DNA of 64,000 nt from an uncultured Gammaproteobacteria bacterium (GCA_903862645.1 CAIOZF010000128.1:1-64000); one strand, 5' to 3'. Positions 24,457 to 39,647 are shown, counted from the first letter of the stretch. Program-made: numbers and translations. The notes: generated by a model not told the origin, from the sequence alone.

Positions 24457-25962
24457 GTGAAACTCTCAGGTAATAGCAAGGCCATATTCCTCCTCGCTGC
24501 GTTGCTGCCAACGCTGCCCACTATTCATGCTCAACAATCCGACTCTCCGCAATCCGGGTCCGACCCCGTTTCGGTAGAAGAGGTCACAGCGGATCCTTCG
24601 CAGGTGGAGGCTCCTGGTACTGTCAGGCTGCTCTACTTCGAACGGCCGGTGGCGCTGGCGAGGGCTGATGAGAAGGCGCTGAATCTGACCGACATCGGTA
24701 CCGCGAGCATCGACTCCTCAGCGGAGCCGTCCGTGTTCGCCGATCTCGCCCCCGAGCAACAAGAGTACCTGCAAAGGCTCGCCGACATCGACGGGTATGA
24801 GCAGCTGCTGGAGCAACTCGAATACGAAGGAGGCGCCTGGAGCGCCCAGATTGCTGAAGAGCTCATCACGCTGGGCACATTGTTACAGGCCCAGGGCGAC
24901 TATCAGAAATCCACCGAAGTGTTTGACCGCGCGGTGCACGTCAACCGGGTGAACTTCGGCCTTTACAGTCCGGAGCAGATTCCGTTGGTGGAGCGCATCG
25001 TCGACAATCATCTCGCCTTAGGGCAGTGGAGCGAGGCGGACAAGCAACAACAGTACGCTTTTTATGTGCAGGTCAAAGCCTATGGCACCCGCGATCCGCG
25101 CATGGCATCCGTATATGAGGATCTAGCGCGCTGGAATATCACCAGCTTCTATCGGGGTGTCGACGATGATCCAACGGCTCGCCTTCTGGAGACGTACAGG
25201 CTCTTTCGCGCCGCCGCCAGCGTCGTGGCCTTCCATTTCGGGACCGAGGATCCGCGTTATGTGAATCTGCTGAAGGACGTCGCCGGAGCCTCTGACATGG
25301 TGACCCGCTTCAGTCCTGCAGGGACTCTGGAAACGACCCCGACCAATCCCAACATTCGCAGAGTGAGCGAGTTTATCGGCGTCCCGGCGGACCCGGTGCG
25401 GGTGCCCGGTGGTGGTAGCGAATCGGCGCTGCGCCGAATTGTCGATTTTTATGGCGACTCGGACAGGCCGGCGACCGAGGAAAATCTTATGCGGCGAGTG
25501 CAGGCGCTGGCCGAGCTGGGGGACTGGTACATGATGGAGCAGAGACGCCAGGCGGCGATCGATGTCTACTCAGAAGCATGGGATCTGCTGCTGACCTTGG
25601 AGGACGGTGCCGCCCGCGCGCAGGGGTATTTTGATCAGGTGGTCTTTCTGCCGACTTTTTCCCGCTTTGACGAAGAGCAGCGAGAAGCTTTTCAGGTGTC
25701 GCCCGACTACAATGCCAGGCAGGGCTATGTGGAGATCTCGTTCGATGTGTCGCAGTACGGCCGGCCATCCGATTTCACTGTGCTGGGCGTTGAGCCGCCG
25801 GGGATGGGGCGAGTCGACATGATGGCGGTCAACCACGTGCGGTCAATGACATTACGGCCAAAATTTCAGGCAGACACGGCGCTGGCCTCCTCGGCAGAGC
25901 GTTTCCGCGTTCCGTTCTGGTACAGAGAGGTCAAGCCGACAAGTGTGACAGCGAAGGAGTAA
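24457..25962 (+). CDS. Secreted TPR-like protein with TonB-C-like C-terminus
   Basis: The 501-residue protein begins with a GTG start and a signal peptide (MKLSGNSKAIFLLAALLPTL ... IHA, cleavage before QQSD); AGGA lies about 8 bases upstream. Helical repeat segments fill about 120-215 and 340-380 (EELITLGTLLQAQGDYQKSTEVFDR looks TPR-like). Residues about 420-490 (GYVEISFDVSQYGRPSDFTV, then VRSMTLRPKFQ) resemble a TonB C-terminal domain. A GGGTCCGACCC palindrome lies in the linker after the signal peptide. It is first in the envelope locus, 137 bases before the next gene. Function unknown; the TonB-C similarity fits the ExbB/ExbD-like proteins downstream. Confidence 0.75.
   Translation: MKLSGNSKAIFLLAALLPTLPTIHAQQSDSPQSGSDPVSVEEVTADPSQVEAPGTVRLLYFERPVALARADEKALNLTDIGTASIDSSAEPSVFADLAPEQQEYLQRLADIDGYEQLLEQLEYEGGAWSAQIAEELITLGTLLQAQGDYQKSTEVFDRAVHVNRVNFGLYSPEQIPLVERIVDNHLALGQWSEADKQQQYAFYVQVKAYGTRDPRMASVYEDLARWNITSFYRGVDDDPTARLLETYRLFRAAASVVAFHFGTEDPRYVNLLKDVAGASDMVTRFSPAGTLETTPTNPNIRRVSEFIGVPADPVRVPGGGSESALRRIVDFYGDSDRPATEENLMRRVQALAELGDWYMMEQRRQAAIDVYSEAWDLLLTLEDGAARAQGYFDQVVFLPTFSRFDEEQREAFQVSPDYNARQGYVEISFDVSQYGRPSDFTVLGVEPPGMGRVDMMAVNHVRSMTLRPKFQADTALASSAERFRVPFWYREVKPTSVTAKE
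24556..24566. repeat. GGGTCNGACCC palindrome inside a gene
   Basis: GGGTCCGACCC is in the linker after the signal peptide of the secreted TPR protein, in the frame giving Ser-Gly-Ser-Asp-Pro. Other copies are at 37479 and 49074, with variants at 49032 and 62070. Confidence 0.6.
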
Positions 25963-26099
25963 AAACGATTCTGGCGGAACGGAAAAAATATTGCCGGCGC
26001 CGGTCTTCTGCTGAGACAGCACAACCACCTGTTGAAACCGATCCCGACAGGTCTCATTATGGGCACAGCGATTAACTGCAAGACACGGGACCTTTCATC

Positions 26100-27107
26100 A
26101 TGAAGAATTCAACAGTCAGACATCTGTTTGTGGTCAGCGCTGCGGCATTGCTGCTGGCCGGCTGTGAGTCTGCCAGTCAGCAGTCTTCCCAGAGCTCCAT
26201 GCCTTCGTCGTCCTCGTCCTCGTCTTCGCCGAGCACGCCGTCGATTCCGTCTTCTTCCTCGCCCAGTTCCAGAAGCACGCCATCGTCGTCGAGCTCCAGC
26301 TCCAGCTCCAGCTCTACCCCGAGTTCGAGTCCAGGCAGCACCGCGTCGATTCCATCCACGCCGTCGCCTGCAGGGCGGGACTCCAGCCCTGGCAGCCAGT
26401 CCTCTTCCGGATCGCCGATGCCGGCAACTGCCGGTGGTGCGCAGCCATCTGGGAGCGCCAGGTCGCCAGCGGGCAGAACGGCGGGGTCAACGGGAACACA
26501 GTCGGCCGGCACTTCTGGGGCGCAGCCGGCAGGGGCTCAGGGTGCAGGGGCTCAGAGTGCAGGCGGGCAGCGTGATGGCACTGGTGGTCAGGCCGGCGTC
26601 AGTGGCAGTGTCAGTGCCGGAGGCAATTACAGTCTCGATACGCTCCCCGGCGGTCTGGGCGACACCGGCGCCGGTCCGATGACTACCCAGGAGCGCGCGG
26701 CCGTTCTAAACGGGGCTCTTAATCGCGGCTATGAAGAATTCGATGGTTTCATTCTCGAAGAACGCGCCCGCGCTCAGGCACAAGCCAATGCCGAACGCAA
26801 TGCTGGAGTTCCCGGCGCCGCCGGTGCCAGTGATGCCGGTGGCGCAGCGGGTGGCGGCGGTGGTCAGCAGGTCATCGTGACAGCGGCCCCCGGTGGTACG
26901 CCGTCCGCTCCCCAGGGAGCGGCGGGAGCCGGAGGCGGTTCGGGCGCAGATGAGCAGACTTTCCCGCCACCCGAGGACATTCCCAACGGTCGGGATGACG
27001 ACATCGTGGCCAGGCAACTGCGTGAAGCGGCGATGCGCGAGCCCGACCCGGAGCTGCGCGAAAAATTGTGGGATGAATATCGTAAGTACACTGGTACAGG
27101 CGTCTAA
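26100..27107 (+). CDS. Low-complexity Ser/Gly-rich lipoprotein
   Basis: The 335-residue protein has a lipobox LLLAGC (Cys-22) after a short hydrophobic stretch. It is followed by about 65 residues that are mostly Ser and Pro, then a Gly/Ala/Ser-rich stretch to about residue 190. Two more ordered segments follow: ERAAVLNGALNRGYEEFDGF and a charged C-terminus (DDDIVARQLREAAMREPDPE). It looks like an outer-membrane lipoprotein with a flexible tether, perhaps crossing the peptidoglycan. No family recognised. It stops 3 bases before the next lipoprotein gene and starts the tight operon. Confidence 0.8.
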   Translation: MKNSTVRHLFVVSAAALLLAGCESASQQSSQSSMPSSSSSSSSPSTPSIPSSSSPSSRSTPSSSSSSSSSSSTPSSSPGSTASIPSTPSPAGRDSSPGSQSSSGSPMPATAGGAQPSGSARSPAGRTAGSTGTQSAGTSGAQPAGAQGAGAQSAGGQRDGTGGQAGVSGSVSAGGNYSLDTLPGGLGDTGAGPMTTQERAAVLNGALNRGYEEFDGFILEERARAQAQANAERNAGVPGAAGASDAGGAAGGGGGQQVIVTAAPGGTPSAPQGAAGAGGGSGADEQTFPPPEDIPNGRDDDIVARQLREAAMREPDPELREKLWDEYRKYTGTGV

Positions 27108-27110
27108 ATC

Positions 27111-28322
27111 ATGTTGGCATCATCTATCCAAACCCCTATTCGCTTCGCGGCTGGCGCCAGAATCCTGCTGCTCTGTCTCATGGCGCCAGTGCTGCTGGCG
27201 TGCTCCACCACTTCGGTCAAATCTACCGAGTATGTGCAGGTCGTGCAGGACACCGCGCCCATGTCCGAAGATCTGTTGATGGATATCGGAATCAATGTTT
27301 TCGATCCGGGTATCGATGAGATCGACGAGGACGAGGAGGAGCGCGTCAGCCCCGAGATTCGCAACGCCGAGGCCCGCTATGCGCCATATCTGCTCGCGGA
27401 AACCCTGCAGCGCTCTGGCAATTGGGGCGTGGTGCGGGTGTTGCCGACCGAGACGACTACCATGGATGTCTACCTGCACGGGCAGATTCTGCAGTCCGAT
27501 GGCGAGGGCATGCGCATCAGCATTTCCGCCCGCGACTCCAGCGGCGCGATCTGGTACACCAAGGAATACGAGGAGCACATCAGCCAGTTCAACTACGAGC
27601 CTTCGCAGAGGCAAGCCAACGACCCGTTCCAGGTGATCTACAACAACATCGCCAACGACCTGCTCGCGTGGCGCAAGGCTAATCTGACGGAACAGCGAAC
27701 CCGGGCTATCCGCACCATTTCCGAGCTGCAGTTTGCCCGCAACTTCGCCCCCGAGCTGTTCGACCAATATCTGACCGTCGATTCCGGTGGCATCACGAGT
27801 GTCGTCAGGCTGCCGGCGGACAACGACCCAGCGCTGGTGCGCATCCTTGAGATCCGGCAGCGCGACAACCTGTTCGTCGACACGGTACAGGATTACTATG
27901 CCAACTATGCCCGACAGATGCGCGTGCCTTATGACTCATGGCGCCAGCAGAGTTACAGCGCCGTGCAGGAAGTCGAAAAGGCCGAGCGCTCTTCGCGCCG
28001 CCGTTTCATCGCCGGTACTGCCGCCATAGTCGGCGGCATCGCGGCTGCCACCAGCAGCAATGGGGCCGTGCAGACAGGAGCACTGGTCGGCGTGGGTGCC
28101 GGTGCCTACCTGATCAAGAGCGGGTTTGATCTGAATGCCGAGGCCCAGATTCACATTGCGGCGCTGCAGGAATTGGGAGAGTCTCTGGAGGCCGAGGTCG
28201 CGCCGAAGATGATCGATCTCGATGACCGTACCATCATGCTGACCGGCACCGTCGAGGAGCAGTACAGCCAGTGGCGGGAAATCCTGGTGGAAATGTACGA
28301 GGCTGAGGCAGGAAACCTTTAA
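27111..28322 (+). CDS. Lipoprotein with glycine-zipper-like segment
   Basis: The 403-residue protein has a signal peptide ending VLLAC (Cys-31). An acidic stretch, DEIDEDEEER, is near residue 70. The middle has a beta-rich segment (MDVYLHGQILQSDGEGMRIS) resembling periplasmic lipoproteins that bind partners. Near residues 305-345 a small-residue segment (GTAAIVGGIAAATSSNGAV, GALVGVGAGAYLIKSGFD) may be a membrane-active glycine-zipper hairpin. Family not recognised. Adjacent genes are 3 and 32 bases away, so it is part of the ExbB/VWA operon. Confidence 0.78.
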   Translation: MLASSIQTPIRFAAGARILLLCLMAPVLLACSTTSVKSTEYVQVVQDTAPMSEDLLMDIGINVFDPGIDEIDEDEEERVSPEIRNAEARYAPYLLAETLQRSGNWGVVRVLPTETTTMDVYLHGQILQSDGEGMRISISARDSSGAIWYTKEYEEHISQFNYEPSQRQANDPFQVIYNNIANDLLAWRKANLTEQRTRAIRTISELQFARNFAPELFDQYLTVDSGGITSVVRLPADNDPALVRILEIRQRDNLFVDTVQDYYANYARQMRVPYDSWRQQSYSAVQEVEKAERSSRRRFIAGTAAIVGGIAAATSSNGAVQTGALVGVGAGAYLIKSGFDLNAEAQIHIAALQELGESLEAEVAPKMIDLDDRTIMLTGTVEEQYSQWREILVEMYEAEAGNL

Positions 28323-28354
28323 TCTGGGCTTTATTGGAAGGTCGGCCGAGCGCT

Positions 28355-29929
28355 ATGTCAGACAAAGAACAATTGAATAATGCCGGGCGCGTCGATGCGG
28401 ATGCGGTCTATGTGGGCAAGGTCGACCCGGGCAAGGGCTTCGGTGTGCCCTGGCAGCCAGCCGTCAGCCCCGCTACTGCGAATCGTGGTCCGTCACCCGT
28501 GATCTGGGCAATGCTGGCCGTGTCAGCGTTGCTGGCGCTGGCAGTGATTTTTGTGCTGCCCGGGGTGGTGGAGCAGTACGAGCTGCCCTTTACCCCGCGC
28601 GCCGAAATTACTACCCCCGTTGTGCCTGCAGGCACCGCCGCTCCTGTCGGCAACCCCATCTCTCCCTTCGAGGAAGCACAGAAGGCCCGGCAGCGCGCCG
28701 AGGCCCAGGATATCCTCGCCAGCCTGCTGGATCGGCAGAGTGAGCTCGAACTGCTGATGGTCAGCACTTGGGCGCCTTATGCTTATCAGGCCGCCATTGA
28801 GTTTGCCCGGTTGGGTGACGAGGCTTACCGCACCCAGGATTTTGCGCAGGCCACTGATCAGTATCGCCAGAGTGATGCCGCGCTGGCAGCGCTGCTGGAT
28901 TCAGTCCCTGCGGTTTTCAGTGCCGCGCTCACGGCAGGCAATGCGGCACTGGATGCTGGCGATGCCACCCTGGCGAGCAACCAATTCACCCGTGCCCTAA
29001 CACTGCGCCCCCAGGATGCGGAAGCACAGTCCGGTCTGGCTCGTGCCGCGACGCTGGAGCAGGTGACGCAGCTGCTCGACGAGGCGGCAACGCTGATCGC
29101 AGGCGGAGAACTCTCTGGTGCTGAAACGCAATTGCAGCAGGCCATCGGCCTCGATCCGTTGCATCAGAGCGCCCGCGACCAGCTCGCCCAGGTCCGCAGC
29201 CAGCTCGCTGACAACAGTTTCACCGCCGTGATGTCCGAGGGTTTTGCCGCCCTGCAGTCCGGCAACTCCGATTCCGCTATCGCCGCCTTCGAGCGCGCAC
29301 TGGCAATGCGCCCCGGATCGCAACAGGCCCTGGAGGCCATCACCCAGACTCGTGACCAGCTCGCTGTCGACCAGATCACCGCGCATCAAAACAGCGCCAC
29401 GGCTTTGGAGGCAGAAGAGAAATGGGAGGCGGCCGTGGCGGAGTACGACGCGGCGCTGGCTATCGACCTTAATCTGGTCTTCGCCCAGCAGGGCAGAGAT
29501 TACGCCCAGAAGCGCCTGCAATTGGACCGGCTCCTGCAGAGTGCCATCGAGCAGCCTGCGCGCTTGGGTGATGCCGCCGTGCATGAACAGGCCGTGCAGG
29601 TGTTTTACACCGGCCGCAGCCTTGAGAATCCCGGCCCGCGCCTGCAGCAGCAACTGACTGCGGTCGAGACCCTGCTGGAGAAGGCACAGGTGCCCGCCGA
29701 AGTGCAGCTGGTGTCGGATAACCTAACCGAAGTGACGCTCTACCAGGTCGGTGTGTTGGGGCGTTTCGAGTCCCACGTACTGATGCTCAAGCCGGGGAAT
29801 TATGTGGCCGTTGGCACCCGCGCCGGGTATCGTGACGTGCGGGCGGAGTTCGAGGTGGGCTTCGATGGTCGCAGCACGCCCGTGACCATCACGTGTACCG
29901 AAGAAGTTGTAGCAGTCAACAGGCGCTGA
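28355..29929 (+). CDS. Membrane-anchored TPR protein with PEGA-like end
   Basis: The 524-residue protein has a cytoplasmic N-terminus of about 48 residues, one membrane helix (49-68, VIWAMLAVSALLALAVIFVL), and a long helical periplasmic part with TPR-like units (ALTAGNAALDAGDATLASN, EGFAALQSGNSDSAIAAFER, SATALEAEEKWEAAVAEYD). The last 70 residues (TLYQVGVLGRFESHVLML, KPGNYVAVGTRAGYRDV) resemble a PEGA domain. ATG at 28355 is preferred to a TTG 21 bases upstream. It probably works with the next protein, which shares the one-helix plus PEGA design and starts 4 bases later. Confidence 0.8.
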   Translation: MSDKEQLNNAGRVDADAVYVGKVDPGKGFGVPWQPAVSPATANRGPSPVIWAMLAVSALLALAVIFVLPGVVEQYELPFTPRAEITTPVVPAGTAAPVGNPISPFEEAQKARQRAEAQDILASLLDRQSELELLMVSTWAPYAYQAAIEFARLGDEAYRTQDFAQATDQYRQSDAALAALLDSVPAVFSAALTAGNAALDAGDATLASNQFTRALTLRPQDAEAQSGLARAATLEQVTQLLDEAATLIAGGELSGAETQLQQAIGLDPLHQSARDQLAQVRSQLADNSFTAVMSEGFAALQSGNSDSAIAAFERALAMRPGSQQALEAITQTRDQLAVDQITAHQNSATALEAEEKWEAAVAEYDAALAIDLNLVFAQQGRDYAQKRLQLDRLLQSAIEQPARLGDAAVHEQAVQVFYTGRSLENPGPRLQQQLTAVETLLEKAQVPAEVQLVSDNLTEVTLYQVGVLGRFESHVLMLKPGNYVAVGTRAGYRDVRAEFEVGFDGRSTPVTITCTEEVVAVNRR

Positions 29930-29933
29930 GTTC

Positions 29934-32039
29934 ATGCAGGAATATCGTCAAGACAGTGCCCGCCCGGAGGTCGCCAGCGATGTCGCCGACCCCATCGTTC
30001 CCATCGAGTTTTCGCCGCCCGATCCCGAGCAGAAGCGCGCCGGCCTGCGCTTGCGCTGGCCCCATGTGCTGGTGGCAGGCTTTCTCGCCATGGCCGGCGT
30101 GGCCAGCTGGTTCGTGCTCAGTGCTCGTTCTGTCTATGTCGAAGTGACGCCGCTGACGGCCAGCGTCGAAATCCAATCCGGGTTCTCCTTGCAGATCGGA
30201 CAGCGCTACCTGATGCTGCCCGGCGATTATCCGGTGCTGCTACGCCAGGAGGGCTACCACGATGCACAGGTGACCCTCGCCGTCGGCAGCGCTCAGGCCC
30301 AGAATCATCCGTTTGCACTGCGTGAGCTGCCCGGCATTGTCAGCGTTGAGGTGACCGGGGTCAGCGGCGGCCTCAGCGGTGCCATCGTGCAGCTCAATGG
30401 CAGCGAGATTGGTCGTACCCCCCTGCGCGACATGGCGATAGAGCCGGGCGAGTACACGCTGACCATCAATGTCGACCGCTACCTTCCCTACACTCAAAGC
30501 GTCCGAATCGATGGCCGCTCCACCCTCAATCCTTTCAGCGCGCAATTGCAGCAGGCCTGGGGTGAGTTCAGCTTCAGCACACAACCCGCCGGGGCGGAAG
30601 TGCTGGTCGATGGACAACTGCTGGGTACCACTCCTTATCGCGCCGAGATCCTGCAAGGCGACCATGAAGTCACTCTCAAGCTTGCCGGGCACAAGGCCTG
30701 GCAGGACACCCTGGAGGTCGCTGCCGGTCAAACCGCCGAGCTGCCCACGGTGGCACTGGAGCGCGCCGACGGCCTGGTGTTCATCCGCTCCCAGCCGAGC
30801 GGGGCGAACGTCACCATCAATGGCCAGTTCCGGGGTCAGACCCCCGTCGAGGTCGCGCTGCCACCAGGCCGCAGTCATGAGATATCTCTGTTCAAGAGTG
30901 GCTTCGACGCCACCAGCAGAACCATTGAGACCCGCCCCGACGAGGAGCAGGACATCACGGTGCCGTTGATTCCGATTACCTCCGTGGTCTCCATCATTGC
31001 CGAGCCTGCCGGTGCGCAGCTCTATGTCGACGGCGAGCTCAAGGGTGACGCCAACCAGACCCTGGAGCTCCTGGCGGCCAGTCAGATCATCGAGATTCGC
31101 CAGGAGGGCTATGTGCCCTACACCGGCGCCTTCACGTCGCGGCCAGGGCTGGAACAAGAGCTGCGCGTGACTCTGAAGTCCCTCGAAGAGGCGCGTCTGG
31201 AAGCCATTCGTCCTGTCATCACCACCGCAGCCGGCCAGTCCCTGACACTGCTCTATCCCGGGCAGTTCACCATGGGCGCCTCTCGCCGAGAGGCTGGGCG
31301 CCGTGCCAATGAGGACCTGCGTGAGGTACGTCTGGAGCGCCCCTTCTATCTGTCGCCGCACGAAGTGAGCAATGCCCAGTACAAGCAATTCAAGGCCGAC
31401 CATTCCTCGGGAGTGATCGAAGGCCGTACTCTCGATCTGGACAATCAACCGGTAGTACAGGTCGGCTGGCTTGACGCCGCGCTGTACTGCAACTGGCTGA
31501 GCGAGCGGGAAGGCTTGCCGCAGTTCTATCAGGTGCAGGACGGCCAGGTGACTGGCTTTGATCCGGAGGCCACCGGCTACCGCCTGCCTACCGAAGCGGA
31601 ATGGGAGTGGGCGGCTAGAACGGACGGTAATGGCAATACCCTGCGCTATCCCTGGGGTGATCAGCTGCCACCGCCTGCCGGGGCAGGCAATTTCGCCGAT
31701 GTTTCCGTCAGCCCGTTCATGGGCCAGTTCATCGTCGGCTATGACGATACCTTCCTCGGCACAGCCCCTGCAGGCCAGTTCCCTGTCAATAGCCGTGGCA
31801 TGTACGACATGGCCGGCAACGTCTCGGAGTGGGTGCATGATTTCTACGGGACGCTGCTTAGCCTGAGCAGCAACGTCGAGGTCGATCCCGCGGGTCCGCA
31901 GGCGGGGGCTTACCACACCATCAAGGGTTCGAGCTGGGCGCACAGCAGCATCACCGAGTTGCGGCTCTCTTACCGCGATTTCAGTGACACCGCGCGCAAC
32001 GATCTGGGCTTCCGGATCGCGCGTTATCTGGAGGAATGA
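29934..32039 (+). CDS. PEGA-repeat protein with formylglycine-generating-enzyme-like domain
   Basis: The 701-residue protein has one membrane helix (about 42-63), then four or five PEGA-like repeats to about residue 415; typical units are QPAGAEVLVDGQLLGTTPY and QPSGANVTINGQFRGQTPV. Residues about 438-701 form an FGE/SUMF1-type domain: GQFTMGASRREAGRR, RLPTEAEWEWAAR, YPWGDQ, GMYDMAGNVSEWVHDF, and final LGFRIARYL. The protein has one cysteine (ALYCNWL), so the copper-binding Cys pair of aerobic FGE is absent. A binding or structural role is more likely than sulfatase activation, and no sulfatase is nearby. Translationally coupled neighbours on both sides (4-base gaps). Confidence 0.86.
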   Translation: MQEYRQDSARPEVASDVADPIVPIEFSPPDPEQKRAGLRLRWPHVLVAGFLAMAGVASWFVLSARSVYVEVTPLTASVEIQSGFSLQIGQRYLMLPGDYPVLLRQEGYHDAQVTLAVGSAQAQNHPFALRELPGIVSVEVTGVSGGLSGAIVQLNGSEIGRTPLRDMAIEPGEYTLTINVDRYLPYTQSVRIDGRSTLNPFSAQLQQAWGEFSFSTQPAGAEVLVDGQLLGTTPYRAEILQGDHEVTLKLAGHKAWQDTLEVAAGQTAELPTVALERADGLVFIRSQPSGANVTINGQFRGQTPVEVALPPGRSHEISLFKSGFDATSRTIETRPDEEQDITVPLIPITSVVSIIAEPAGAQLYVDGELKGDANQTLELLAASQIIEIRQEGYVPYTGAFTSRPGLEQELRVTLKSLEEARLEAIRPVITTAAGQSLTLLYPGQFTMGASRREAGRRANEDLREVRLERPFYLSPHEVSNAQYKQFKADHSSGVIEGRTLDLDNQPVVQVGWLDAALYCNWLSEREGLPQFYQVQDGQVTGFDPEATGYRLPTEAEWEWAARTDGNGNTLRYPWGDQLPPPAGAGNFADVSVSPFMGQFIVGYDDTFLGTAPAGQFPVNSRGMYDMAGNVSEWVHDFYGTLLSLSSNVEVDPAGPQAGAYHTIKGSSWAHSSITELRLSYRDFSDTARNDLGFRIARYLEE

Positions 32040-32043
32040 AGCG

Positions 32044-32379
32044 ATGCAGCATAGACCGAGACTGATGTCATGGTTGGCAAGAGTGCTGGTGGGCGTGTTG
32101 ATCGGTGCAGCTCTGGTATTGACCGTGCAGGCCCAAACGACAGGCCAGCCGAACGATCAGGCCACTCCAGATACGGGCGCTGGCCAGCCAGCGGCTGACG
32201 CGCAGGATCAGGCTGTGGGCGCCGCGCCACAGGGGACAGCAGGTGCGGATGCTTCGGCAGCTGATCCGGATGCGGCTCCATTAGACGGCGAAGTGCCCAC
32301 TGGCACTTCCCCTGGCCGCTTCATCCCTCGCGAGCAGCTGTCCCAGGATCTGGGCGCCTCCTTTCCGGTGGATATCTAA
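32044..32379 (+). CDS. Small secreted Ala/Gln/Asp-rich protein
   Basis: The 111-residue protein has a signal peptide of about 30 residues (hydrophobic VLVGVLIGAALVLTVQA), then a low-complexity Ala/Gly/Asp/Gln region. A short more conserved-looking end follows (GRFIPREQLSQDLGASFPVDI). No family recognised. It sits 4 bases after the PEGA-FGE gene and 48 before the ExbB-like gene; a small periplasmic accessory is plausible. Confidence 0.65.
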   Translation: MQHRPRLMSWLARVLVGVLIGAALVLTVQAQTTGQPNDQATPDTGAGQPAADAQDQAVGAAPQGTAGADASAADPDAAPLDGEVPTGTSPGRFIPREQLSQDLGASFPVDI

Positions 32380-32427
32380 GCCACCGCTTCGACCAAAATA
32401 GTCACTAAAAACAGGCAAGGATCGAGC

Positions 32428-33243
32428 ATGAAACAGAACTACCTCTCCGAAATCATCTATCAGGTCTTCGCGCTAATCATCTGTGTGATCGTGGTGCATA
32501 CCGTCTATGTGGCTGTAGTTTTGCCCAACGCGGCTTTCATCCTGGAGCAGCAGGCGGCCATGCAGGCGGCGGACAGCAGCTATGTGGCGCCGCGCTCCCT
32601 GTACGTGATCCTCAGGGATATGGAGCAGGAGACCTGCATCATCCTGATGTTCTGGGCGCTGGCGATCATTGGCATGAAGACGCGCCGGGTGCTGCAGGAG
32701 CGATCGCTGCTGGACCGCGAGCTGTTACAGGTTTCCGAGGGGACCAGCATTCTGCCCGACGACGCACGCCAGTACGCCCGTCCGGTGCAGGCACTGCCCG
32801 AGCAGGAACGCGCCTTCCTGTTGCCGCGCGCGGTACTGGCCGGCCTGCATCGTTTCGGCACCACCCGCAGCATTCAGGACGCCTCCAACACTATTAAAGA
32901 CATCTGCAGTGGCGAGTCCGACCGTATGGAGAGCGAGCTGAGCATCATTCGCTACATCGCCTGGGCTATCCCGTCCATCGGCTTCATCGGCACCGTGCGC
33001 GGCATCGGCGCGGCGCTGAGCCAGGCCCACCAGGCCGTCACCGGCGACATCATGGGGGTGACGGTCAGTCTCGGCGTGGCTTTCAACTCCACCTTCGTCG
33101 CGCTGGTCACCAGCATGTTGCTGATGTTCCTGCTGCAGCAGTTGCTGCTGCTGCAGGACCGACTGGTGCTCGACACCCAGTCTTACTGTGATGAGCATAT
33201 CCTTCGTTATCTGCAGGTTCCGGACAAGGACGCACTGGCATGA
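32428..33243 (+). CDS. ExbB/TolQ/MotA-family proton channel subunit
   Basis: The 271-residue protein has membrane helices near 10-33 and 67-84. A conserved MotA/ExbB domain near 170-245 contains PSIGFIGTVRGIGAAL, GVTVSLGVAFNSTFVAL and a final hydrophobic helix LLMFLLQQLLLL. The GTVRGI and Thr-containing last helix match residues lining the proton path of ExbB/TolQ. Length is typical of ExbB-like proteins. It overlaps the next gene by ATGA. Its expected ExbD-type partners are the two VWA proteins encoded just downstream. Confidence 0.88.
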   Translation: MKQNYLSEIIYQVFALIICVIVVHTVYVAVVLPNAAFILEQQAAMQAADSSYVAPRSLYVILRDMEQETCIILMFWALAIIGMKTRRVLQERSLLDRELLQVSEGTSILPDDARQYARPVQALPEQERAFLLPRAVLAGLHRFGTTRSIQDASNTIKDICSGESDRMESELSIIRYIAWAIPSIGFIGTVRGIGAALSQAHQAVTGDIMGVTVSLGVAFNSTFVALVTSMLLMFLLQQLLLLQDRLVLDTQSYCDEHILRYLQVPDKDALA

Positions 33244-34595
33244 CACTGCGTGTCCTCGAATTCAACGATGCCGGCATTCGCGTCAGCGACGATAGCGGGG
33301 TGCTGCTCAGCAGCCCCGGTTATGCCCTGGTGAATGGCAAGCGCATCGAATTCGGCGAGCACGCTCGCAAGCAGAGCCGGTTGAATCCGCTCAACTGCTA
33401 CAACCAGTTCTGGCACAAACTTAATCTCGACCCCTTCGCGCGACCGGTGGCCCATTACCGCCACAACGCGGACATCGCCTTCTCGCATCTGCAGGATCTC
33501 GCCGCCGCGACCGAGCTGAAAGGTGACGTGCTGCTGGCAGTGCCGGGCAGCTTCTCACGTCAACAGCTGGCGATTCTGCTCGGACTCATCAAGCAGTGTT
33601 CGTTCCGCGCCGTCGGCATCGTCGACGCGGGTCTGGCCGCCGCCATTGATCAGACCCACAGCGACAGCGTGATTCACGCCGACCTGCAGTTGCATCAGGT
33701 CGTGCTCTCCAAACTGACGCGGCAGGGCGGCGAACTGGTGCGCGAGAGTGTCGTCCAGGTACCGGGCACCGGCTGGGTGAATCTCTCTGACAGCCTGCTG
33801 CAGCTCATGAACGGTGCCTTCATTCAGCAGGCGCGCTTCAACCCGCAGCATAATGCCGAGTCCGAACAGCTGCTGCTCGACGGGCTGCCGGGCTGGCTGC
33901 GCGACGACTCGCAAGCCCTCGCCGGCGGACAAAGCAGTGCCGCACCCGGAGCCGATGACGAGGAGGCGCGGCGCAACCTGCTGGTAAGCCTGCATCACAG
34001 CAACACCGTGCATCAGGCGCGTGTACCGCGCAGCAGCCTGCACACACGCCTGCAGCCGTTCTATCAGAAGATTCAGCGGCAGCTGGCCCTGCTCGACCCC
34101 GAGGGGAGCAGCCGTCTGCTCGCCTCCGATCGCCTGATGCATCTGCCCGGGTTCAACGAAGACTTCAGCCGGGAGCGCGGCCGCTTCAGCGCACTCGACG
34201 AGGGGGCCATCGGAGCCGCCTGTCTGCGCTACCACGAGGCCCTGCGCAGTGCGCCGGAGGCCGTGCACTTCGTCACGCGCCTGCGCACGTTTGGCACCCA
34301 GGACTCGCCCGTACAGCCGCATGCAGCAGCCCTGCCGCAACCCACCCATGTGCTGGGTGGTCATCGTGCCCGCCCGCTCGTCGATGGCCTGTCACTGGAG
34401 CGCCTGCTGGCGTCCGCATCCGGCGAAATCATCAGTGATGGAGTCCACTACTCCCTGCGCAACGCGAGTGCTGGCGTGCTGATCAACGGCAGCAGTGTGC
34501 GTCCTCTGCAGCGTCTGCAGATGGGGGATCGCATACAACTGGCCGATGGTAGTGCGAGTATTGAACTGATTCGGGTGCAGCATGGCGACGAATAA
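33240..34595 (+). CDS. Actin-fold (Hsp70-like) protein with FHA-like C-terminus
   Basis: The 451-residue cytoplasmic protein (no signal or membrane helix) opens MTLRVLEFNDAGIRVSDDSG, like a phosphate-1 loop of the actin/Hsp70 fold. It has VLLAVPGSFSRQQLAILLGL followed by VGIVDAGLAAAID, typical of YegD/PilM-like ATPases. The last 70 residues (SGEIISDGVHYSLRNASAGV, LINGSSVRPLQRLQMGDRI) look like an FHA domain in which binding residues are partly changed. It could assemble or regulate the channel complex from the cytoplasm. Both assignments are by pattern only. It overlaps its neighbours by 4 and 14 bases. Confidence 0.68.
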   Translation: MTLRVLEFNDAGIRVSDDSGVLLSSPGYALVNGKRIEFGEHARKQSRLNPLNCYNQFWHKLNLDPFARPVAHYRHNADIAFSHLQDLAAATELKGDVLLAVPGSFSRQQLAILLGLIKQCSFRAVGIVDAGLAAAIDQTHSDSVIHADLQLHQVVLSKLTRQGGELVRESVVQVPGTGWVNLSDSLLQLMNGAFIQQARFNPQHNAESEQLLLDGLPGWLRDDSQALAGGQSSAAPGADDEEARRNLLVSLHHSNTVHQARVPRSSLHTRLQPFYQKIQRQLALLDPEGSSRLLASDRLMHLPGFNEDFSRERGRFSALDEGAIGAACLRYHEALRSAPEAVHFVTRLRTFGTQDSPVQPHAAALPQPTHVLGGHRARPLVDGLSLERLLASASGEIISDGVHYSLRNASAGVLINGSSVRPLQRLQMGDRIQLADGSASIELIRVQHGDE

Positions 34596-35697
34596 GAACC
34601 GCAAGGCACAGGGCCGGGCCTTCAGCCCCATGAGTCTGTCGTTTCTAGACGTCATGTCCTGCGGCTTCGGCGCCGTCGTGCTGATCTTTCTGATCCTCGA
34701 TCACCAGATCTCCGAACGGCAGCAGAGCGTCGCCGGGGATCCGAACACGGTCACCGAGGTGCGGCTGCTGGAGGAGGAAATACTTGAAGGTCAGCAAAAC
34801 CTGGTGCAGGCAAGAAACACTCTCGACGAGGTCAGTCTGGAAGTGGTGACCGCGCAAGGGCTGGCCGAACGCATTCAGCAGGAGATCACCAGCTTCCTCG
34901 AACAGCTGGCCGATATGGAGAACAACACTCTCGCCAGCGAGGAGAGCCTCGAACAGCTGCGCGCCGACATCCGCTCCCTTGAAGAAGAGCTGCAGCGCCT
35001 GCAGGCCAGTGCCATCGAGGAGACCGGCACCAGTGCCCGCGCCTTCGTGGGAGATGGTGACCGGCAGTATCTGACCGGCATGTTTCTCGGGGGTAACCGC
35101 GTGCTGATCCTGATCGACACTTCCGCGAGCATGCTGGACGAGACACTGGTCAACATCATCCGTACCCGCAACATGTCCGAGGACAATCGCCGCACCGCCG
35201 AGAAATGGCAGCGCGCCGTGCGCACAGTGGAGTGGATCAGCAGCCAACTGCCGGTGGCCAGTCAATATCAGATCTACGGATTCAGCAGTGAGTACCAGGC
35301 TGCACTGACCGGCACCGAGGGCGACTGGCTGGAGGTAGCGGATCGTGACGAGCTCAATCGGAGTATCGAAGGGGTCAAGCGCTTCATACCGGACAAGGGC
35401 ACCAATCTGGCCAACATTTTTCAGGCGGCGGCCCAGATGTCACCGCCTCCCGACAACATTTATCTGATCACCGACGGGTTGCCGACGCTCTCCAACGACA
35501 ACTCGTCGGACACGCTGATCACGCCCGCCAAAAGGCTTGAACTTTTCGAGGAGGCGGTAGAGTATCTTCCTCAGCGCACCCCGGTAAACGTCATCCTGCT
35601 GCCCCTCGAAGGGGACCCCAGCGCCCCGGCGGCGTACTGGCAATTGGCACAGATCACCCGAGGCTCGTTCCTCAGTCCAGCGCGAGACTGGCCATAA
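34582..35697 (+). CDS. VWA protein with ExbD-like membrane helix (first copy)
   Basis: The 371-residue protein has a single N-terminal helix, SFLDVMSCGFGAVVLIFLIL (20-39), with Asp-23 at the start, as in ExbD/TolR/MotB where this Asp carries protons. Residues 60-145 are coiled coil (LRADIRSLEEELQRLQ). A VWA domain follows: MIDAS LILIDTSASM (Asp-179, Ser-181, Ser-183), the Thr in KGTNLANIF, and the Asp in YLITDGLPT. Predicted topology puts the VWA domain in the periplasm. It overlaps the upstream gene by 14 bases and the second VWA gene by one (TAATG). Confidence 0.85.
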   Translation: MATNKNRKAQGRAFSPMSLSFLDVMSCGFGAVVLIFLILDHQISERQQSVAGDPNTVTEVRLLEEEILEGQQNLVQARNTLDEVSLEVVTAQGLAERIQQEITSFLEQLADMENNTLASEESLEQLRADIRSLEEELQRLQASAIEETGTSARAFVGDGDRQYLTGMFLGGNRVLILIDTSASMLDETLVNIIRTRNMSEDNRRTAEKWQRAVRTVEWISSQLPVASQYQIYGFSSEYQAALTGTEGDWLEVADRDELNRSIEGVKRFIPDKGTNLANIFQAAAQMSPPPDNIYLITDGLPTLSNDNSSDTLITPAKRLELFEEAVEYLPQRTPVNVILLPLEGDPSAPAAYWQLAQITRGSFLSPARDWP

Positions 35698-36704
35698 TGC
35701 GTAGACGAATAGACGACTCAGCAGAATCCTCCGCCATGTCGTTCCTCGACGTGATTTCCTGTGGTTTCGGGGCGATGATTCTGTTGCTGCTGATCACCGA
35801 CATCGCGCCCTCTGTCACGCTGGAAACCAATCCGGTGCAGCAAGTCACACCGCCTATCACCGATCTGCAGCAGCAACTCTTCCAGATTCGCGGAGAGACC
35901 CAGGTCGTCAATCGCGATCTTAATGCCAAACGCGAACAACTCTCCGCGTTTCAGGACCGCATCGCCAATCTGCGCCGGGAACTATCGGCCATTCAGGGTG
36001 AATTCAACGCCTCCGACAGCATCGCGGAGGAACGAATCGAAGAGGCCGAACAGCTTGCGGCTGCCAAGCAGTCGCTGACCGATGAGCAGCAACGGCTGCT
36101 GGGCGAAGGTACTGCTCGCAAGAACAATCTAGTGGGCGGTATCCCGGTGGACAGCGAGTATATTATCTTCGTCATCGACACCTCGGGCAGTATGTTTCAG
36201 AACGCCTGGCCCAAACTGCTCGATGTCATCGTCGACATCCTCGATGTCTATCCCGAGGTGAAAGGTATCCAGGTCATGAACGACGAGGGTGATTACATGT
36301 TCGACTCTTTTCGCGGGCAATGGATTCCCGACACGCCAGCGCGTCGCCAGACGATTATCAGCACGCTGCGTAACTGGAGCCCGTTCAGTGACAGCAGCCC
36401 GGTGGAAGGTGTCACCGCAGCAATCAATACCTATTACGCTCCGGACAAGAAGATCAGCGTCTATGTCATGGGCGACGACTTCCAGCCGGGCGGCTCCATC
36501 ACCAACGTGATCGAGACCATAGACCGCCTTAATAGTGACGATGCGAATGGCAATCCGATGGTGCGTATACATGGTGTCGGTTTCCCGGTCATCTTCGCAC
36601 TGGAGCCGCGATATCATCAGAGTGTCTATCGTTATGCCAACCTGATGCGCGAACTGACCCAGCGCAACGGCGGCACGTTCGTAGGCCTGAACAGTTTCGA
36701 ATAA
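35697..36704 (+). CDS. VWA protein with ExbD-like membrane helix (second copy)
   Basis: The 335-residue paralogue of the preceding protein has helix SFLDVISCGFGAMILLLLI (15-33) with the matching Asp at 18, a coiled coil (about 55-135), then a VWA domain with IIFVIDTSGSM (MIDAS Asp-161, Ser-163, Ser-165), VEGVTAAI and VMGDDFQPG. The two VWA proteins diverge in their VWA parts but keep FLDV-SCGFGA nearly unchanged, consistent with a heterodimer inserted in an ExbB-like pentamer. It is the last gene of the tight operon; 95 bases follow before the next gene. Confidence 0.85.
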   Translation: MRRRIDDSAESSAMSFLDVISCGFGAMILLLLITDIAPSVTLETNPVQQVTPPITDLQQQLFQIRGETQVVNRDLNAKREQLSAFQDRIANLRRELSAIQGEFNASDSIAEERIEEAEQLAAAKQSLTDEQQRLLGEGTARKNNLVGGIPVDSEYIIFVIDTSGSMFQNAWPKLLDVIVDILDVYPEVKGIQVMNDEGDYMFDSFRGQWIPDTPARRQTIISTLRNWSPFSDSSPVEGVTAAINTYYAPDKKISVYVMGDDFQPGGSITNVIETIDRLNSDDANGNPMVRIHGVGFPVIFALEPRYHQSVYRYANLMRELTQRNGGTFVGLNSFE

Positions 36705-36799
36705 AGAATGCGAATTAGTCTGAAACATTCACAGTGGCGGCAGTCGTGACCTGCTAAGATCAGTTACAGTTATTTGTTGCAGATAGTCGGAGAAATGCA

Positions 36800-37423
36800 G
36801 TGATTCATCTGAACAGCCTGAAGATCTTCGGTGTTGCGTGCCTGGCGCTGCTGCTCAGTGCCTGCGGCGCGAACTCGGTCGTGGTGCAAGGGAGTTACCC
36901 GAGCCCCAATGTGCGCCCGATCCCGCTGACGCTGGGCGTGTATTTCGATGAGGAGTTGAAGGGTTTCAACTATATCGAGTACACCGAGACCGGCAAGGAA
37001 GAATATGTGGTGGCGAGCGGTCAGACACACATACAACTGTTTAACTCTCTGCTGCCTTCCATGTTTGCCCGAGTCGTCGTGCTCGATAGTCTTGAGGCCG
37101 CCGCAGGCGCTCAAGTCGATGCCGTGCTTGCCCCCAGCATCGAAGAGTTTCAGTTGGCACTCCCACAGAAGACCCGCCTGGATGCCTACGAGGTGTGGGT
37201 GAAATACAACATGCGGCTGCTGGCTCCCGATGGCGCTTACATTGCGGACTGGGTCGTGACTTCTTACGGCAAGACACCCACTGAGTCGTTGCGCTCGGTG
37301 GAGTCCGGAATCAATGACGCCACTGTCGGCGCACTGCGCGACCTGGCATCGAATTTTACGCTCAGCTTCAGGTCTGTCCCCGAAGTGAGCGAGTGGCTGG
37401 AGGCCAAAGGGGCCACCGACTGA
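36800..37423 (+). CDS. Lipoprotein, unknown family
   Basis: The 207-residue lipoprotein has lipobox LLSAC (Cys-22) and a GTG start with GGAG 7 bases upstream. The mature part is mixed alpha/beta with PIPLTLGVYFDEELKGF and YEVWVKYNMRLLAPDGAYI, a layout like small outer-membrane-associated lipoproteins of the LptE/DUF799 kind. No family is certain. It follows the second VWA gene on the same strand and precedes two more lipoprotein genes. Confidence 0.75.
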   Translation: MIHLNSLKIFGVACLALLLSACGANSVVVQGSYPSPNVRPIPLTLGVYFDEELKGFNYIEYTETGKEEYVVASGQTHIQLFNSLLPSMFARVVVLDSLEAAAGAQVDAVLAPSIEEFQLALPQKTRLDAYEVWVKYNMRLLAPDGAYIADWVVTSYGKTPTESLRSVESGINDATVGALRDLASNFTLSFRSVPEVSEWLEAKGATD

Positions 37424-37445
37424 ACACCGAGAGCAGGGGCTGGAT

Positions 37446-38150
37446 ATGACGTCCGCAAGACTTGCCATAGCAAAATCCGGGTCAGACCCGCGTAAGCGGT
37501 TAGATTTGTTGATATTGTTTGGGCTGCTGTCGCTTTTGTTGACGGCCTGCACCACTACGACTGTGGACGAATTCCGCCAGGGTGAAACCGGCATCGAGGC
37601 TCACCAGTCTATCGTCATCCTCGGCCGTCGCCAGGGCAGTACCTACGAGACACGCGAAGAGTTCGTAACCTGTGTCGGAGAGCGCGTGGCCCGTGGCACC
37701 GAGGCCATTCGTGTGATCCCCGAGAAAGAGTTCATCGATTCGCTGTTCCCCTGGTTCGAACCGCGCACCGCGCCACTGCGCACCAGCGACCTGCAGGTGT
37801 TGATGGAGGAACCGCTGGTCGCCCAGAAGATCAACGAGTACGGCATACGCTACATCGTCTGGGTCGATGGCCAGACCGAGACCACTAATCGCATGGGCTC
37901 CATATCCTGCGCGGTCGGCCCGGGCGGCGGTGGATGCTTCGGCTTCGGCTCCTGGGAAGACGATTCCAATTTCGATGCGCGAGTCTGGGACGTGTCCTCG
38001 TTCGCCTCCGTCGGCACCATCAGCACCGACGCCACGGGGCAGTCCTACCTGCCCGCAGTGGTGGTCCCCATTCCCTTGATTGCCCGTGTCGAAGCAAACG
38101 CCTGCAGCAGCCTTGCCACGCAGTTGCAGCAGTTCGTCAACGGCGGTTGA
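37446..38150 (+). CDS. Lipoprotein, unknown family, repeat-extended N-terminus
   Basis: The 234-residue lipoprotein has lipobox LLTAC (Cys-35). The n-region is unusually long because it contains KSGSDPRKR, encoded by a GGGTCAGACCC repeat; TTG codons just before the hydrophobic part could be alternative starts. The mature protein has FVTCVGERVARGTEAIRVI and EYGIRYIVWVDGQTE, plus a Gly/Cys patch (CAVGPGGGGCFGFGSWED). Several Cys suggest disulfides. Function unknown. It is 22 bases from the previous gene. Confidence 0.75.
   Translation: MTSARLAIAKSGSDPRKRLDLLILFGLLSLLLTACTTTTVDEFRQGETGIEAHQSIVILGRRQGSTYETREEFVTCVGERVARGTEAIRVIPEKEFIDSLFPWFEPRTAPLRTSDLQVLMEEPLVAQKINEYGIRYIVWVDGQTETTNRMGSISCAVGPGGGGCFGFGSWEDDSNFDARVWDVSSFASVGTISTDATGQSYLPAVVVPIPLIARVEANACSSLATQLQQFVNGG
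37479..37489. repeat. GGGTCNGACCC palindrome inside a gene
   Basis: GGGTCAGACCC is followed by GCGTAAG and reads Gly-Ser-Asp-Pro-Arg-Lys in the signal peptide n-region of the lipoprotein gene. The flank resembles the copy in waaC (GGGTCTGACCCACGTAAG). Confidence 0.6.
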
Positions 38151-38174
38151 AAGGCAGAATTACAGGTAAGAATC

Positions 38175-39647
38175 ATGAATCCTATTCCACACAGAATTGC
38201 CGTCACAGCACTGCTAATGACCGGCTCGATGCTGCTCACCTCCTGCGCCATCAACCCCGCCACAGGGCAAGGCAACATCGTGATGATGTCCGAGAAGCGC
38301 GAGCTGGAGATCGGCAAGGAAGAGCATGACAAGGTCATGCAAAGCAGCGCCGTCATGACCGACGAAGAGCTCACCAGCTATGTCAACGAAGTCGGCCAGC
38401 GCCTCGCTGCCGTCAGCCATCGCAGCGATCTTACCTACACCTTCACCGTCATCGACAGCCCCGAAATCAACGCCTTCGCGCTGCCCGGTGGTTATGTCTA
38501 CGTCAACCGCGGCCTGCTCGCCTACCTGAACACGGAAGCCGAACTCGCCGCCGTGCTGGGTCATGAGATTGGCCACATCACCGCCCGACATGCCGTGCAG
38601 CAGCAGTCCAGCGGCAAACTGGCCAGCATCGCTGCTGGCGTGGGCGGCATCGTCGCCGCCGTGGCGACAGGCAGTGGCTACATCGGCTCGCAGATCATGG
38701 ACGTGGGTTCACTGTGGGCGCAGGCCGGGCTCAGTGGCTTCGGCCGCGAGCACGAGCTGGAGGCCGACAGCCTCGGTGCCGAATATCTGCTGGCGGCCGG
38801 TTACGACCCGCAGGCCGTGATCCGCGTCGTCACCGTGCTCAAGAATCAGGAAGATTTCAACACCAAGGTCGCCAACCAGCAGCCAAGCTACCACGGTCTG
38901 TTCGCCACCCACCCGCGCAGCGATACCCGTCTGCAGGAAGCTGTGGCCAGCGTCGGCGCACTTCCGGCCTCTGAAGCTACGCTGGTCGACAATCAGAAAT
39001 TCCGCGAGAAGATGGACGGCCTCATCGTCGGCGAAAGCCAGGCGCTCACCGGCAGCGAGGCCCGCAACCGCTACTATCAGGAACTGCTGGGCTACACGAT
39101 GGTGTTTCCCGACGGCTGGACCATCGCGGAAACTCCCACCACCGTCTCCGCCGCTGGCGCCGAAGGTAACGCCGGGTTGCGTGTGGAAGTGCAGCGCATG
39201 CAGGAGAGTATCGAGCCGCGCCTGTTCATCCGCGACAAGCTCGGTATCGCCAATCTGCAGAAGACCGAGGACCTCAGTCAGTTCCGCCTGATCGGCTACA
39301 CTGGCGTCGCGAACACCAGCGGCACGGCGCAGCGCGTCGCGGTCATCTTCATGGGTCCGCGTGTCTTCATCTTCACCGGTGACATCAAGGACGCCACGAA
39401 GCAGGACGAACTGGACGAACAGCTGCTGGCCTCCATCCGCACCTTCCGCGCAATCCAGACCAACGAGCGTTTCTCCGGCAATGAAAGCCACATCCGCTGG
39501 GTGCAGGTCGGTGACGGCTTCAGCTTCCCCGCACTGGCGCGCATGAGCCCCATTGCCAATTACCCCGATGAAACGCTGAGGCTGCTTAATGGGTATTACC
39601 CGGCTGGTGATCCGAAGGCGGGGGAGTGGATCAAGATCGTCGAATAA
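38175..39647 (+). CDS. M48 family metalloprotease lipoprotein
   Basis: The 490-residue protein has lipobox LLTSC (Cys-24) and an M48 peptidase domain: NAFALPGGYVYVNRGLL, zinc motif HEIGHITARH (His-130, His-134), and third ligand in REHELEADSLGAEYL. It is similar to BepA/LoiP-type periplasmic proteases in outer-membrane quality control. The C-terminal 200 residues (YTMVFPDGWTIAETPTTVS) are a separate domain found in many such proteases. It is 24 bases after the previous lipoprotein, so it likely belongs to the envelope locus. Confidence 0.9.
   Translation: MNPIPHRIAVTALLMTGSMLLTSCAINPATGQGNIVMMSEKRELEIGKEEHDKVMQSSAVMTDEELTSYVNEVGQRLAAVSHRSDLTYTFTVIDSPEINAFALPGGYVYVNRGLLAYLNTEAELAAVLGHEIGHITARHAVQQQSSGKLASIAAGVGGIVAAVATGSGYIGSQIMDVGSLWAQAGLSGFGREHELEADSLGAEYLLAAGYDPQAVIRVVTVLKNQEDFNTKVANQQPSYHGLFATHPRSDTRLQEAVASVGALPASEATLVDNQKFREKMDGLIVGESQALTGSEARNRYYQELLGYTMVFPDGWTIAETPTTVSAAGAEGNAGLRVEVQRMQESIEPRLFIRDKLGIANLQKTEDLSQFRLIGYTGVANTSGTAQRVAVIFMGPRVFIFTGDIKDATKQDELDEQLLASIRTFRAIQTNERFSGNESHIRWVQVGDGFSFPALARMSPIANYPDETLRLLNGYYPAGDPKAGEWIKIVE

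Follow-up and report, generated by a model that had tools for sequence, protein, structure and literature searches.

Does a tightly packed run of envelope genes in an uncultured gammaproteobacterium encode a proton-driven machine of its own, and if so, what would that machine act on? Of the proton-driven motors that act in the periplasm or at the outer membrane, few have, to our knowledge, been characterised. The locus considered here lies in a window of 64,000 nucleotides (the whole stretch of DNA that was analysed, GCA_903862645.1 CAIOZF010000128.1:1-64000), and an earlier note on this DNA had described it as thirteen genes with a closely packed core. The open reading frames and the distances between them bear this out: thirteen of them, here called A to M, lie between 24457 and 39647, all on the plus strand (Table 1), and from B to J (26100-36704) neighbours either overlap or are at most 48 bases apart, the gaps being 3, 11 (32 if D starts at the ATG at 28355), 4 (with the ATG of F at 32044), 48, -4, -14 and -1 bases. 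The likely starts are 28355 for D, which has an alternative TTG start at 28334, and 32044 for F. Most of the domains named in the earlier note are also recovered by Pfam, which gives MotA_ExbB for G, VWA_2 for I, four PEGA repeats and an FGE-sulfatase domain for E, TPR for A and D, and M48 for M. The TonB-C-like end proposed for A reaches 14.1 bits against a cut-off of 27.1, and the PEGA part of D is seen by eye but not reached by Pfam.

Table 1 Open reading frames of the locus, with positions counted from the first letter of the window
Gene	Positions	Strand	Reading
A	24457..25962	+	Secreted protein with TPR; weak support for a TonB-C-like end; found at the locus in most lineages but not all
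B	26100..27107	+	Ser-rich predicted lipoprotein, lipobox LAGC-E; C-terminal part conserved; in minimal set
C	27111..28322	+	Predicted outer-membrane lipoprotein; TolB-N/PelC/CsgG/FlgT-like alpha/beta domain, long helical hairpin, small C-terminal domain; in minimal set
D	28355..29929	+	One TM helix after a cytoplasmic N-tail; TPR repeats in the periplasm; end PEGA-like by eye
E	29934..32039	+	Cytoplasmic N-tail, one TM helix, four PEGA, FGE/SUMF1-fold domain without catalytic cysteines
F	32044..32379	+	Small secreted low-complexity protein; conservation poor
G	32428..33243	+	ExbB/TolQ-like channel subunit; four predicted TM helices; T189/T222 = TolQ T145/T178
H	33240..34595	+	Hsp70-NBD-fold protein of the cytoplasm that lacks the usual ATP motifs, with an FHA-like domain fused to it; missing in some deep lineages
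I	34582..35697	+	Putative first axle subunit; D23 invariant in the N-terminal TM helix, then a coiled-coil stalk and a VWA head, MIDAS residues intact
J	35697..36704	+	Putative second axle subunit and paralogue of I; D18 invariant in the TM helix, then a coiled coil and a VWA-type head
K	36800..37423	+	Predicted outer-membrane lipoprotein; limited to some lineages
L	37446..38150	+	Predicted outer-membrane lipoprotein; limited to some lineages
M	38175..39647	+	M48-family protease, predicted lipoprotein; limited to some lineages

The case for a motor begins with G, which matches MotA_ExbB (PF01618) at a Pfam E-value of 1.5e-12 and whose four helices are predicted by hydropathy. The C-terminal half of G can be aligned gap-free to solved TolQ, in a weak match (E 0.06) that places T189 on T145 and T222 on T178, which we take to be, in TolQ numbering, two residues of importance. 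Position 189 is Thr in 121 of 121 G sequences, as is position 222 in 122 of 122. In I and J, a transmembrane aspartate is invariant (D23 in 128 of 128 and D18 in 125 of 125 sequences, respectively), carried by a helix of the pattern FLDVxSCGFGA that follows a short N-terminus and whose placement is like that of the PLIDVVFLLLIFF helix in the ExbD proteins of the same genome. I matches VWA_2 (Pfam E 2.7e-9), and a search of solved structures by sequence with I returned no match at E 0.01. J had been called a second VWA protein; it has no Pfam VWA match, its sole Pfam matches being of the coiled-coil kind, but its profile and that of I match across 311 columns (hhalign probability 99.5) and its DxSxS motif is intact, which rules out a non-VWA coiled-coil protein. 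I and J are tandem paralogues, and in both the VWA-site DxSxS and the later Asp are near-invariant.

No ExbD/TolR domain (PF02472) was found in I or J, or anywhere on the contig that carries them (C128), and elsewhere the genome holds four other MotA_ExbB genes, four ExbD/TolR genes and one TolB gene, which together support well the claim that this is a separate machine of the proton-motive type. In MotAB, ExbBD and TolQR, proton transfer has been tied to a ring of Thr residues and a transmembrane Asp (PMC10666116). Given the transmembrane Asp of I and J, the Thr pair of G and the lack of ExbD/TolR at the locus, I and J appear to fill the ExbD/TolR position, and the best reading of their sequences makes them the motor's axle, of ExbD/TolR type; since they are an unlike pair of paralogues, a heterodimeric I:J axle is suggested. 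The idea that the VWA proteins deliver the force of the channel is thus recast, the invariant Asp making I and J the probable axle itself.

A core of this kind has been predicted before. The TPH-vWA motors proposed in 2025 consist of a TolQ-like gene and a heterologous vWA pair, are predicted to be PMF-driven, have no tolR or exbD and carry a TolR-like transpore helix with a conserved Asp; they are found mostly in Proteobacteria and Verrucomicrobia, and AlphaFold 3 independently led to the same core model (Mol Biol Evol msaf138, PMC12204202). Judged by the published description, the present locus has the same traits, namely a tolQ-like gene beside a vWA pair, no tolR or exbD and a transmembrane Asp, and the likeness to the Idiomarina proteins of that family is likewise one of description. 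Since the core had been predicted, the claim of the earlier note that no described system has this composition is partly overtaken. It may still stand for the extended composition: the main text of PMC12204202 makes no mention of PEGA, FGE or an Hsp70/FHA protein and describes neither B-C-D-E as a set nor H, nor the folds of these C and H proteins, nor the lineage pattern, and beyond that paper we found no literature description of the wider cluster. What is added here is the minimal set B-C-D-E-G-I-J, the fold of the C domain, the fold of H and its fusion to an FHA-like domain, and protein E with its PEGA repeats and cysteine-less FGE domain.

The cluster is real and strongly conserved. A scan of named genomes confirmed at least 545 places, the best 80 of which include Pseudohongiella, OM182, Halieaceae, Microbulbifer, Luminiphilus and Chromatocurvus. 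Among the 57 loci of named species with enough flank to be fully covered, the order A to M is identical in 47, and six more keep the order B to M and lack only A; this conservation of gene order is far beyond chance. Thirty-nine of 57 relatives have a match of the I type, and these include all genomes sampled from the same family (with a weak match in G006, which is incomplete); twenty loci from these relatives mostly have the same gene order, with G, C, B and M inverted around D-E-F-H-I-J in two loci of one genus (L039, L040). The expectation that the ExbB-like and VWA genes travel together was confirmed as well: strong I and strong G matches fall in the same 31 of 369 genomes sampled from the class (lists compared by eye), and their neighbourhoods are conserved. 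C is present in 27 of the 369 genomes, 26 of them in common with I, a co-occurrence with odds of 8e-34 when kinship is ignored; C went undetected in five genomes with strong I and G, of which three are fragmented and two 99-100% complete.

Two apparent exceptions were set aside. One genome (G240) has C and no match to I or G, and its C and D are fragmented, which marks a decayed locus; in this copy (L184:8373-11174) the fragments lie beside repeated transposase-like ORFs, with no motor genes. In one genus (L037, L038, L045) A to E are missing at the locus, and the loss of B to E as a counter-example was ruled out by an intact B-C-D-E block elsewhere in the genome, both halves being kept. In one genome of this genus (G022) the block lies about 33 kb away on the same contig. 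Intact B-C-D-E blocks apart from F-M are seen in one genus at L206:2573-9059 and L207:2418-8901, a natural split into two transcription units.

In distant lineages, among them a family from another class of the phylum, B-C-D-E-G-I-J are kept and H, K, L and M are missing at the locus, which indicates that the conserved unit is these seven genes and that the presence of H and of K-L-M varies from lineage to lineage. No H lies between G and I in L131, L157-L159, L166-L168 and L177-L181. No relatives of I were found on plasmids or viral contigs, and thus nothing points to a mobile or phage system.

We think it fairly probable that this cluster, conserved in marine gammaproteobacteria, builds a proton-driven motor of the 5:2 type in the inner membrane, with a VWA-bearing I:J axle whose two unlike adhesion-type arms act on outer-membrane lipoproteins. 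In the arrangement that we infer, G would form a TolQ/ExbB-like pentameric ring into which one I and one J insert their N-terminal helices as a heterodimeric axle, with D23 and D18 as its putative proton-binding residues; protons passing these residues and T189 and T222 of the ring would turn ring and axle against each other, and the coiled coils of I and J would carry the motion into the periplasm. There the VWA heads might grip partners through their metal (MIDAS) sites, the candidates being D (TPR) and E (PEGA/pseudo-FGE) at the inner membrane and the lipoproteins B and C at the outer membrane, joined in some lineages by K, L and M. Contacts of I and J with B to E would be expected in such an arrangement; operon neighbours need not touch. 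Where H is present, it may connect or regulate the machine from the cytoplasm without use of ATP. Most probably such a machine would do mechanical work on a complex of outer-membrane lipoproteins, comparable to that of Tol-Pal but separate from it; upkeep of the outer membrane or of peptidoglycan, as the earlier note suggested, is a candidate role.

With Tol-Pal itself the locus shares a TolQ-like ring, a transmembrane Asp in the axle, a protein with a TolB-N-like domain and a TPR protein, whereas the TolR domain, TolA, the TolB propeller and Pal are absent from it by Pfam; MotA_ExbB, ExbD/TolR and TolB genes stand together on another contig of the same genome (C45), the only place where TolB_N was found. 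ExbBD-TonB has in common with it an ExbB-like channel and an ExbD-like axle helix, but here VWA heads replace the ExbD fold and there is no clear TonB.

The nature of E and H bears on a different account, according to which the cluster is a surface-motility or adhesion engine like Agl/Glt of Myxococcus or Gld of Flavobacterium, in which the motor moves or exposes outer-membrane adhesins and the VWA heads and the pseudo-FGE protein belong to the moving train. The partners of AglR are two MotB-like subunits, AglQ and AglS (PMC9389320), and the Agl/Glt system thus resembles the locus in having one MotA-like subunit and two different MotB/TolR-like ones, but the periplasmic domains of AglQ and AglS are TolR-like, not VWA, and no Glt genes were recognised here. 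The T9SS/gliding system GldKLMN likewise pairs a 5:2 motor operon with an FGE-fold partner protein, and the FGE domain of E matches the GldK model (NCBIfam TIGR03525) at 114.5 bits. This is, however, far under the cut-off of 350; E is a TM-anchored protein with PEGA repeats, there is no GldL or GldM match at the locus, and the PvdO, SenA, GldJ and EgtB models also match, so that the score reflects the common FGE fold. An identity of E with GldK was rejected on this score, and activity as an FGE was rejected because the catalytic cysteine pair is absent, with no cysteine in the C-terminal FGE stretch of 18 out of 18 sequences; an FGE domain without these cysteines suggests a putative binding module.

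The presence of an actin-fold protein would also suit an engine of this type. The structure model of H (pLDDT 92.8) has the fold of the Hsp70 nucleotide-binding domain (Z 28.9 over 318 residues, rmsd 3.1), and its C-terminus scores 14.0 bits against the FHA model of Pfam (cut-off 20.7), with the family profile matching the EmbR FHA region at E 1.5e-4; the original call of an actin-fold/FHA-like protein is refined by this to an Hsp70-type actin fold with a probable FHA-like domain at the C-terminus. Yet the phosphate-1 DLGTT and phosphate-2 DLGGGT motifs are absent from H, where conserved ELND and DIQLHQ stand instead. With the Gly-rich phosphate motifs replaced, ATP hydrolysis by H is unlikely, and a protein with an Hsp70-like fold and no ATP motifs is, by sequence, not an MreB-type filament. 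Nor was any surface adhesin, GldM-like or Glt-like gene recognised in the locus, and we consider an engine for motility or adhesion unlikely.

On the outer-membrane side, lipobox-type signals are found on B, C, K, L and M; in B the pattern missed the lipobox in 8 of 17 sequences. Under the Lol rule, the residue that follows the lipobox cysteine (position +2) governs sorting to the outer membrane. It is not Asp in the proteins of the window, nor in the alignments of C, K and L, which predicts an outer-membrane location for the five lipoproteins. The structure model of C was built from 28 sequences (pLDDT 75), and for its residues 40-195 most of the top rows are envelope lipoproteins or periplasmic proteins of the same fold. 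The alpha/beta domain matches FlgT (Z 8.8), PelC (Z 8.1, rmsd 2.7 over 121 residues), CsgG (Z 7.7) and TolB-N (Z 6.4), all with moderate Z values (6 to 9), as well as PqiC-type structures, and TolB-N is the top Foldseek match (E 1.3e-3). TolB and FlgT are members of envelope systems that work with 5:2 motors. Searching solved structures by sequence with C and K gave chance-level matches only. A kinship of K and L with C is not supported either, since their profile matches are confined to the signal peptide and the residues that directly follow it. The genome of the window also carries a second, divergent copy of C (L183:9149-10351, G000:C85), which adjoins a secreted ORF of 238 aa in a stretch where no motor genes were recognised.

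PelC and CsgG, both of them outer-membrane export lipoproteins, are among the best structure matches of C, and one could therefore speculate that the motor powers the export or assembly of an outer-membrane lipoprotein, polysaccharide or amyloid-like product, with C as a PelC/CsgG-like ring. M, an M48 protease, would be in keeping with this, the M48 family having known roles in envelope quality control. The conserved set nevertheless holds no outer-membrane barrel, glycosyltransferase or recognisable cargo gene, and the pore-forming strands of CsgG have no demonstrated counterpart in C; we regard such a role as quite improbable. That G, I and J constitute a signalling or gating channel, not a force generator, whose ion flow senses the state of the envelope and is reported to H through its FHA-like domain would agree with the predicted cytoplasmic location of H, its FHA-like domain and its lack of ATP motifs, and with the FHA-type and PP2C-type genes that adjoin distantly related ExbB-like genes elsewhere, but is very improbable, as several lineages keep B-C-D-E-G-I-J without H and the long stalks and lipoprotein partners better fit a transfer of force. 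The motor acting on outer-membrane lipoproteins is thus the reading that we prefer, weakened as it is by the weak match of G to TolQ, the moderate fold match of C, the five genomes with I and G in which C went undetected, and the absence of H, K, L and M from deep lineages.

Several related ExbB-like loci were seen in passing. At L195:4078-10443, and similarly in L196 and L197, a related ExbB-like gene occurs with a protein that, read from its sequence, is of the FHA type; a PP2C-like ORF comes next in L195 and L197, and L195 further encodes a trypsin-like protease that is secreted and a protein whose helix is of the motor type (SALDLFASALGAF). This set resembles a further uncharacterised motor system, one that includes parts for phospho-signalling. 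At L186:9016-11383 a PP2C-like ORF adjoins a zinc-ribbon-type ORF and a helix protein (SALDLFASAMGAF) that has a weak match to the I profile (35 bits), and the same stretch has an ExbB-like match (G146:C1:15898-16350). A 629-aa ORF with an ExbB-like match adjoins a short protein with a motor-type helix (INLVGIPFVDMLISMIGA) at L199:5-3719. Finally, at L201:3783-10046 a weak ExbB-like gene and two single-helix membrane proteins lie directly beside DNA methyltransferase-like ORFs, possibly a defence-type locus.

We would go further only tentatively, and rate it as somewhat short of an even chance that an obligate heterodimeric VWA axle, a dedicated B-C-D-E relay to the outer membrane and a gating Hsp70-fold/FHA pseudo-ATPase in the cytoplasm together make up a distinct class of machine, with a job outside those of Tol, Ton, Mot, Gld and Agl. 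Many gammaproteobacterial families, and one family of another class, keep the gene set. The unlike putative axle subunits I and J would offer a natural test of asymmetric 5:2 motors, the conserved B-C-D-E are concrete candidates for the partners on which the VWA heads would pull, and H, with an Hsp70 fold and no ATP motifs, suggests that such a motor may be sensed or gated from the cytoplasm.
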